Source: Candidatus Doudnabacteria bacterium (GTDB taxonomy: Bacteria > Patescibacteriota > Doudnabacteria > UBA920). Taken from it: a stretch of DNA of 55,353 bases. The stretch is taken from assembly GCA_016218585.1 (NCBI GenBank), contig JACRDK010000020.1, positions 1 to 55,353 on the forward strand, read 5' to 3'. Below the pieces are notes generated by a model. The model made no database searches. It saw only the letters and a program-made list of their open reading frames with translations, and was not told where the DNA came from. Both the position numbers and the translations under genes were made by a program. Below are positions 23,563-25,161 of the stretch, piece after piece (position 1 is the stretch's first letter; each line of letters starts with the position of its first letter).

Positions 23563-24501
23563 TTAAATTTCAAAATGTGTCAGGGTTTTAAAGTCATTCA
23601 TCCGTTTTTGAATATTGTTTTCTGTAAGATTTTGCAAACGCTCGGTGCCAAGTTTTTCCACACAAAAAGAAGCTAAAGCAGAACCTGCCACACAGGCTTG
23701 TTTTAAGCTTTCCATATTAGTCGCATCAATTTTTGCCAAATAACCCATAAACCCTCCGGCAAAGCTGTCGCCGGCGCCGGTTGGGTCTATTACATCTTCC
23801 AGCGGGTAGCCTGGTAAATTAAAAATTTCGTTTTCCGCAAACAACAACAAGCCGTATTCACCGCGTTTAATAATTAGCGCGGTTTTTGGGCTTTGCTTTA
23901 GCAACAATAAAATTTGCTTTACCGCCTTAACTAAATTGTGCTCGCCGCTTAATTCGCGCGCCTCGGAATCGTTAATTACCAAAAGATCAACCTTGCCTAA
24001 GACATTTTTTAAATCCGGCAGCGCTTTTTCTATCCAGTAGTTCATTGTATCCAAGCCAACCAGCTTGGGAGATGAAATTTGGTTTAAAACTTCCAGTTGC
24101 AAAGCCGGATGCGTGTTGCCCAAAAAAACATATTGCGCTTGGCTTTGGGTTTCGGAAAGTTGGGGTTTAAAATTTTCAAAAACATTTAGTTCGGTAAACA
24201 GAGTAGTGCGGGTGTTCATATCAAAACTGTATTCGCCGCCCCAGGCAAAAGTTTTTCCCGGTATTTTTTTTAGCCCCTCCAAATTAACATTTCTTTTTGC
24301 CAAAACATCCTTGTCGGCATCGGCAAAGTCTTCGCCGACCACAGCAACTAGGGCGGCCGTTGTGAAATAAGAGGCGGCCAGGGAGAAATACGAGGCGCTG
24401 CCGCCTAAGGTTTTGTCAATTTTACCAAAAGGGGTCTTAATGCTGTCATAAGCTACAGAGCCTACTATAAGTAAGCCGTTATTTGACGATTTTGTATTCA
24501 T
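23563..24501 (-). CDS. PfkB-family sugar/nucleoside kinase
   Basis: 312 residues, ribokinase fold. N-terminal GSVAYDSIKTPFG and GGSASYFSLAASYF (substrate-binding glycine pair), and the C-terminal signature DPTGAGDSFAGGFMGYL (about 238-254) with the catalytic Asp. Family members phosphorylate sugars or nucleosides with ATP; the substrate cannot be read from sequence. Divergent from the attenuator leader that begins just upstream. Confidence 0.9.
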   Translation of the reverse strand: MNTKSSNNGLLIVGSVAYDSIKTPFGKIDKTLGGSASYFSLAASYFTTAALVAVVGEDFADADKDVLAKRNVNLEGLKKIPGKTFAWGGEYSFDMNTRTTLFTELNVFENFKPQLSETQSQAQYVFLGNTHPALQLEVLNQISSPKLVGLDTMNYWIEKALPDLKNVLGKVDLLVINDSEARELSGEHNLVKAVKQILLLLKQSPKTALIIKRGEYGLLLFAENEIFNLPGYPLEDVIDPTGAGDSFAGGFMGYLAKIDATNMESLKQACVAGSALASFCVEKLGTERLQNLTENNIQKRMNDFKTLTHFEI

Positions 24502-24511
24502 ATAATAATAT
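24483..24511 (+). promoter_or_regulatory. possible promoter of the leader-peptide RNA
   Basis: TTGACG (24483-24488), 17-bp spacer, TAATAT (24506-24511), directly before the short leader ORF. It overlaps the 5' end of the divergent kinase gene. Confidence 0.5.
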
Positions 24512-24523
24512 TAGCATATAGTT

Positions 24524-24586
24524 ATGAAATCCTCGAAATTACAACAGTTTTACTGGATGATGATGCCTTTGTTAAGCAAGGGTTAA
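24524..24586 (+). CDS. putative 20-residue leader peptide
   Basis: Short ORF MKSSKLQQFYWMMMPLLSKG. It has three consecutive aromatic codons (Phe-Tyr-Trp) followed by three Met codons. Its last codons (24575-24583) form segment A of the attenuator that follows. This size and placement are typical of leader peptides. Translation is not proven; no SD is seen. Confidence 0.45.
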   Translation: MKSSKLQQFYWMMMPLLSKG

Positions 24587-24633
24587 TTTGCGCTGCAAAT
24601 TTTCGCACCCTTGCTATGGAGCAAGGGTTTTTT
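24575..24633 (+). promoter_or_regulatory. attenuator with mutually exclusive hairpins
   Basis: Segment A AGCAAGGGT (24575-24583), segment B ACCCTTGCT (24607-24615), segment C AGCAAGGGT (24620-24628). B-C with the following T6 is an intrinsic terminator; A-B would be an antiterminator and encloses a further AATTTGC/GCAAATT stem (24585-24601). A ribosome stalled on the leader ORF could decide between them. The regulated gene would be the 124-residue protein at 24729. Confidence 0.6.
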
Positions 24634-24728
24634 GTTTGAAAATGGTTTGCTAGAACATGAAATTAATTTCGTGTTTAAGAATGCCCTTTTCAAGGGAACA
24701 GGGTAATATTTAGAAAGAGGGTATTATT

Positions 24729-25103
24729 ATGATGGACAGACAGGCGCAAAGTATCGCATTTGCCATCAAAGGCGCTCCAAGCTTTGCCGCGCAAATCAGT
24801 GAAATGCAAGACTCTCCCGAATTTCTTCTGTCTACCGGCGGGGTTTATCTGTTCTATGCCGGTTTCAGATGTGATGTTATGTTCAACGGGTCTGTTGCGA
24901 CCGTGCTCGCTCTGAGCAAGGAGGAAATAATTGAAGAAGGGCCGCACAAGACTCCCAAGCTCGATAGCCGGTCGTTTTACAAAATACTGTATAACGCGGA
25001 CTATGTTGTCCTTGTCGAAGATGGGGTTTTTATTCCACTAAAACTGCTTACCACCCAGGACGGGGTATTCCTGCTCGACTACGCATTGCCATCTTTTGAT
25101 TAG
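24729..25103 (+). CDS. orphan protein behind an attenuator
   Basis: 124 residues (MMDRQAQSIAFAIKG...). No membrane segment; a mix of short beta strands (GGVYLFYAGFRCDVMFNG, NADYVVLVEDGVFIPLKLL). AAAGAGG SD lies 8 bases before the ATG at 24729; a second ATG is at 24732. GC-rich codon use compared with neighbours. No convincing promoter lies between it and the attenuator, so it is likely read from the leader promoter. A GC-rich terminator follows. No family recognised. Confidence 0.75.
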   Translation: MMDRQAQSIAFAIKGAPSFAAQISEMQDSPEFLLSTGGVYLFYAGFRCDVMFNGSVATVLALSKEEIIEEGPHKTPKLDSRSFYKILYNADYVVLVEDGVFIPLKLLTTQDGVFLLDYALPSFD

Positions 25104-25125: not shown

Positions 25126-25161
25126 GCCGGGGAGAGATTGCAAATCTCCCCGGCATTTTGC
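25126..25161 (+). terminator. intrinsic terminator
   Basis: Stem GCCGGGGAG / CTCCCCGGC around AGATTGCAAAT, with T-rich tail (ATTTTGCTTTTTT). Confidence 0.85.

Follow-up and report, generated by a model that had tools for sequence, protein, structure and literature searches.

What does a 20-codon reading frame do when it runs into a set of mutually complementary segments and a terminator in front of an orphan gene, and, if these parts form a switch, what does the switch sense? This question is raised by a locus in a Candidatus Doudnabacteria genome of 1.19 Mb in 31 contigs. The window, i.e. the whole stretch of DNA analysed here (55,353 nucleotides), is contig 16 of this genome. The locus contains the following features, and all promoters named here and below are consensus matches.

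23563..24501, minus strand: pfkB-family kinase gene, divergent to the leader, a conserved neighbour
24483..24511, plus strand: promoter-like site TTGACG-17-TAATAT, directly upstream of the leader
24524..24586, plus strand: leader ORF MKSSKLQQFYWMMMPLLSKG, 20 codons, with the stop TAA ending at 24586; kept in homologs
24557..24565, plus strand: putative control codons Met-Met-Met (codons 12-14); Met-x-Met conserved in homologs
24566..24571, plus strand: segment 1, CCTTTG, pairing with segment 2, assigned from sequence and alignment
24575..24583, plus strand: segment 2, AGCAAGGGT, pairing with segment 1 or 3
24585..24601, plus strand: small hairpin AATTTGC-GCT-GCAAATT between segments 2 and 3
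24607..24615, plus strand: segment 3, ACCCTTGCT, pairing with segment 2 (antiterminator) or 4 (terminator)
24620..24633, plus strand: segment 4, AGCAAGGGT, plus T run, forming an intrinsic terminator with segment 3
24636..24693, no strand assigned: imperfect 58-bp palindrome between the terminator and the 124-aa gene
24729..25103, plus strand: 124-aa orphan protein gene, the predicted regulated gene
25126..25154, plus strand: terminator-like hairpin followed by T's, 3' of the 124-aa gene, read from the sequence

The leader ATG (24524) lies 12 nt downstream of the promoter-like site with no clear Shine-Dalgarno sequence before it, which would make the transcript leaderless or nearly so; in homologs the promoter-to-ATG spacing is likewise 6-12 nt. 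The original prediction had described three segments, A, B and C (our segments 2, 3 and 4), of which A and C are identical and both pair with B, together with a T run and a 20-codon ORF ending in A. Our inspection agreed: C occupies 24620-24628, the T run (24628-24633) takes in its last base, and the B:C stem appears among the intrinsic terminators listed for the window. That anatomy held for its three segments but overlooked segment 1 (24566-24571) and the hairpin at 24585-24601. Segment 1 lies directly 3' of the Met codons and completes the trp-type set of 1:2, 2:3 and 3:4 pairings, the classical four-segment design. Searches with Rfam covariance models returned only tRNAs and otherwise sub-threshold matches; no leader or riboswitch family (Trp_leader, His_leader, SAM, T-box and others) matched at the gathering score.

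We consider the unit a likely trp/his-type transcription attenuator, mediated by the ribosome and most probably sensing charged Met-tRNA. Its short upstream ORF is enriched for the codons of one amino acid (Met-Met-Met in the window); from these codons we infer the Met sensing, and the stalling and the direction of the response are likewise inferred. RNA polymerase would start just 5' of the leader ATG, and ribosomes would load on the near-leaderless ORF. With ample Met-tRNA, the ribosome would travel on to the stop codon, where segment 2 ends, and cover segments 1 and 2; 3:4 would form, and transcription would end at about 24633. If Met-tRNA runs short, the ribosome would stall in ATGATGATG and cover segment 1 only, leaving segment 2 free to pair with segment 3; no terminator would then form and the 124-aa gene would be transcribed. 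Without translation, 1:2 would form and the terminator would win. On standard ribosome footprints, a ribosome with Met13 in its A site would have its front edge at about 24572-24574, so that segment 1 is covered and segment 2 stays accessible; once the stop codon has entered the A site, both segments would be covered. The leader is not considered to control the divergent pfkB gene.

Homologous loci were located via this conserved neighbour. BLASTN with the window leader found four relatives. Upstream of pfkB, the leader unit was present in 11 of the 17 genomes inspected, and two further genomes carry a Met leader within about 1.5 kb (L044, L073), where L073 was counted as genome G016 because its pfkB upstream sequence is identical. 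G011 has two Met leaders, and G016 has its second one before a cupin gene (L047). Altogether, we counted 15 Met leaders in 13 genomes and 6 genera of one Doudnabacteria family, most of them adjoining a divergent pfkB; G004, G005, G018 and G040 have pfkB and no leader. The original prediction had named in advance one adverse pattern, homologous loci that keep the terminator without the leader ORF or segment A. We found the opposite: ORF, switch and terminator were all kept, along with their complementarity, in support of the proposed attenuator logic.

The leader peptides differ considerably in sequence. Besides the window leader, they are MKFNLAFLSQNMMMPLPGKG, MKFQNLQLHGLMMMPLLGKG, MEYLKFANCGWMKMSFA, MKFIFAQFGWMVMPLPARAV, MKYSIAQSSTMMMPLTSKG, MKFQNLQHRGLMMMALSS, MKFQSRQYRGLMMMAKKYRKRSV, MNLQNFQSANMLMPLPLWKRPDWN, MNNQIYRTAVGMMMPLS, MEFRNIQFSSGKMLCLF, MNNRNINTTMRMGRLWQGDRV, MNQQSFVKSITMWMPLSTKGWF, MNQLKFAKTEMMMQLMNLNRKGWI and MSAMYAVKIMMEMLMPPIMG. 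Met-x-Met stands immediately 5' of segment 1 in 14 of the 15, the exception being MEFRNIQFSSGKMLCLF, and its middle codon varies widely (ATGATGATG, ATGTTAATG, ATGAAGATG, ATGGTGATG, ATGTGGATG, ATGAGAATG), which points to selection for Met codons as such and not for an invariant DNA motif. The 1:2 hairpin accounts for the PL, LP and KG residues that recur. Beyond these residues and Met-x-Met nothing is conserved in the peptides, and they show no conserved nascent-peptide arrest sequence. The suggestion that the aromatic and Met run senses aminoacyl-tRNA supply is therefore retained for its Met part, since M-x-M is conserved, and a Phe-Tyr-Trp sensor is rejected, since FYW is not conserved among the homologous leaders. 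Leader L026 has a single Met codon, and leader L012 has lost segment 1.

For complementarity, MAFFT on all 12 leaders misregistered the two switch types, so formal pair counting was restricted to six sequences of the GCAAGGG type, and the other leaders were assessed by a segment-swap test. In the six-sequence alignment the 3:4 helix showed compensatory changes, with its covariation score reached in 2 of 500 shuffles, and the 2:3 helix was 98% paired with little variation, as was likewise the case for variation in the 1:2 helix. Covariation of A, B and C, proposed earlier as a check, was found for B:C; A:B is kept paired and varies little. The segment-swap set comprised 20 leaders (15 Met, 2 Trp, 2 Ser and 1 Ile). 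On average, segment 3 paired with its own upstream region at -11.6 kcal/mol, compared with -7.9 kcal/mol for swapped regions, a difference reached in 0 of 20000 permutations, a figure to be read as a guide and not as a probability because related leaders are not independent. The mutually exclusive antiterminator and terminator pairings are kept in the homologs and are weak in the L014/L018/L026 group, in which the computed 2:3 duplexes reach about -5 to -7 kcal/mol and the own segment has no advantage over swapped ones. The weak matches of covariance model R1 were mostly ordinary terminators.

The link between the leader and the gene behind it was examined by distance and by a consensus scan for promoters. 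At 8 loci the downstream start codon lies 4-38 nt past the terminator, and among the 13 loci scanned no promoter-like site stood between the terminator and the located start. In the window this distance is 100 nt, likewise without a promoter-like site; by consensus scan only, the gene is preceded by an intrinsic terminator with no later promoter. The 58-bp palindrome in this interval may not be part of the attenuator unit; possible roles are those of an operator or of a further hairpin. Owing to the terminator-like hairpin at 25126..25154, the unit is probably monocistronic.

The 124-aa protein had no Pfam or NCBIfam match above cutoff, no relatives in phages or viral contigs and one marginal match among relatives, in keeping with the earlier description of it as an unknown protein, to which these searches added no convincing relatives. 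A DsrH identity was discarded (E 0.042, below cutoff), as was a G035 match (E 5.5e-4) that lies inside a different, 286-codon reading frame. The genes behind the leader differ among genomes and include several zinc-ribbon-like kinds, cupins and orphans, with a 135-aa pair in G012 and G019. Within the family, G011 and G016 alone have cupin genes of the leader-linked kind, in each case following a Met leader; a possible cupin-leader link was tested and dropped, as a cupin in another family has no Met leader. An acireductone dioxygenase identity for one cupin was a weak match (E 0.021, below cutoff). These sequence comparisons indicate that the conserved element is the attenuator and that the target gene is exchanged. 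At locus L009 (G002, minus strand), a tandem leader-like ORF, MKIYLFPYLYFEMLLPFPSWKRPFCV, a hairpin and then a zinc-ribbon gene were seen downstream of the Met leader.

Leaders of the same build were found elsewhere in the lineage, and the statement that no such leader was known there does not hold: in the window's own genome, trpB is preceded by a Trp leader and another orphan gene by a Ser leader. The Trp-Trp leader MQIIKYNIIFWWTAQNHRVV lies directly upstream of trpB (G000:C5 178074, minus strand, locus L190) and is conserved in G007 (L191) as MRHLISNSSIWWTAQKLWVD, with switch segments that are changed but complementary. In G012 (L188 8513, plus strand, G012:C16), DAHP synthase is preceded by a leader rich in Phe, MVKSTQNFWFFYFTEAQLRLEILS, which has a promoter-like TTGACA-16-TATACT and a terminator. 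Both resemble the Met leader in near-leaderless promoter spacing, a length of 20-24 codons, control codons near position 8-14, competing segments and a terminator, and differ from it in having cognate amino-acid genes (Trp, Phe) as targets. A shared build with cognate targets supports the Met codons as the sensor of the Met leader.

Some other leader-like ORFs were observed in passing. Six-serine leaders, MIKSALQFMISFSSSSSSRKAEWDF (G000:C25 3042, minus strand, L138) and MIKSSFHFLVSFSSSSSSTLLPQR (G005, L037), have attenuator-like switches before small orphan genes. The leader at L040 (G001:C13, about 138893, minus strand), MQKIYSSSIIISIIIPSPLGKGRVLV, is rich in Ile and is accompanied by TTGACA and TATAAT elements and by a terminator. 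An orphan of about 88 aa (HWNGxQQQLF..GKRGLWSVRCC..VPGDYVSAW) occurs in two genera, at G000:C18 47741 (plus strand) and at L188 downstream of DAHP synthase, and the G000 copy sits behind a possible leader, MNNLNNSFSVSWYTLPGV.

Could such an arrangement have come together by chance, as a short ORF meeting an ordinary terminator and a repeated stem? We counted the A/B/C switch with a 10-40-codon ATG ORF ending at A across the whole 1.19-Mb genome and in a second-order Markov copy of it. The bare pattern is weak evidence by itself, with 33 cases in the genome vs 17 in the copy. With a promoter required (at least 9 of 12 consensus positions, 3-16 nt before the ATG), there were 3 cases vs 0, namely the window leader, the leader of a 94-aa orphan (MIKSALQFMISFSSSSSSRKAEWDF) and that of trpB (MQIIKYNIIFWWTAQNHRVV). 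Conservation in 6 genera, with the sequence rewritten and complementarity kept, refutes coincidence and leaves it hardly credible. The exact pattern GCAARGGY..RCCYTTGC..GCAARGGY was confined to one Doudnabacteria family (reversed-pattern controls 0) and gave 0 cases in about 344 genomes from other orders of the phylum; because it captures just one of the switch sequences, its absence there shows sequence specificity and not a lack of attenuators. It is equally far-fetched that the long palindrome formed by segments 1-2-3-4 marks a recombination or cassette site for orphan-gene exchange with an incidental ORF. The palindrome does persist while the gene behind it differs in nearly every genome, but the ORF and its Met codons are kept, the same build precedes fixed metabolic genes, and unsystematic inspection brought up no integrase gene, attC-type motif or repeat.

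It is very unlikely that we are dealing with a small terminated RNA, or a gene for a small peptide, that stands on its own and has no control over the downstream gene. This option, which the original prediction had kept, would suit a downstream gene that differs among genomes and, in the window, a 100-nt gap with space for an unrecognised promoter; it is weakened by the 4-38-nt gap in 8 homologs together with the absence of a promoter-like site, and a terminator alone needs no matching segments 1 and 2, yet their complementarity is kept. A ribosome-mediated attenuator that senses a general slowdown of translation, caused by a ribosome-targeting antibiotic or an arrest peptide, instead of Met-tRNA is also unlikely, if less so. 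Any stall before segment 2 would operate the switch, the targets are not methionine genes, and uORFs responsive to several antibiotic classes exist (PMC12121999). However, an arrest peptide would need a conserved sequence, which is missing outside Met-x-Met, and leaders of the same build have Trp where trpB follows and Phe where DAHP synthase follows. Several observations count against the Met-tRNA attenuator as well: the downstream genes have no known methionine link; 2:3 and 1:2 vary little in the sequences that could be aligned; and there are the single Met of L026, the missing segment 1 of L012, the four genomes with pfkB but without leader, and the weak 2:3 pairing in L014/L018/L026. A target in the metabolism of the sensed amino acid is usual for this class, not essential, and the 124-aa orphan offers none. 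We still favour the Met-tRNA attenuator.

E. coli trpL, pheL and hisL are trp-type ribosome-mediated attenuators.

The trp, leuS and ilvB leaders of Actinobacteria belong to the same class (PMC1262725). The Met leader shares with trp-type attenuators a short ORF with a run of one codon and a stop near segment 2, exclusive 1:2, 2:3 and 3:4 pairings and an intrinsic terminator before the gene; unlike them, it has Met codons, occurs in Patescibacteria and precedes a genome-varying orphan rather than a cognate biosynthetic operon. In Streptomyces lividans, the metL leader before metNIQ is leaderless, has Met codons and was proposed to act by attenuation (PMC8079986). The likeness drawn here is one of architecture, and metL differs in its Met-importer target and its scattered Met codons, and in that no typical intrinsic terminator was found for it (PMC8079986). 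The Sinorhizobium meliloti trpL/peTrpL attenuator also has a leader mRNA beginning at the ATG of the leader ORF (PMC7298713), but with Trp codons and a trpE target; its leader RNA and peptide also act in trans. The mechanism class and leaderless leader mRNAs are thus already known (PMC1262725, PMC7298713). We found no paper on leader-peptide attenuation in Patescibacteria in the open literature, most subscription papers lying outside this coverage; the features that look new are the patescibacterial setting, the specificity for Met and the exchange of orphan targets, and it is unusual for an attenuator with Met codons to have a clear intrinsic terminator.

Taken together, the Met, trpB and DAHP synthase leaders indicate coupled transcription-translation attenuation in a reduced, uncultured lineage. 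We suggest, tentatively and with considerable doubt, that amino-acid attenuators (Met, Ser, perhaps Ile) in auxotrophic Patescibacteria may be starvation switches for an exchangeable orphan slot and not for biosynthesis, perhaps serving nutrient acquisition from a host, with one conserved attenuator controlling whichever gene sits behind it. The Met leader also predicts an inducing condition, methionine shortage, for orphan genes whose function is otherwise without any hint.
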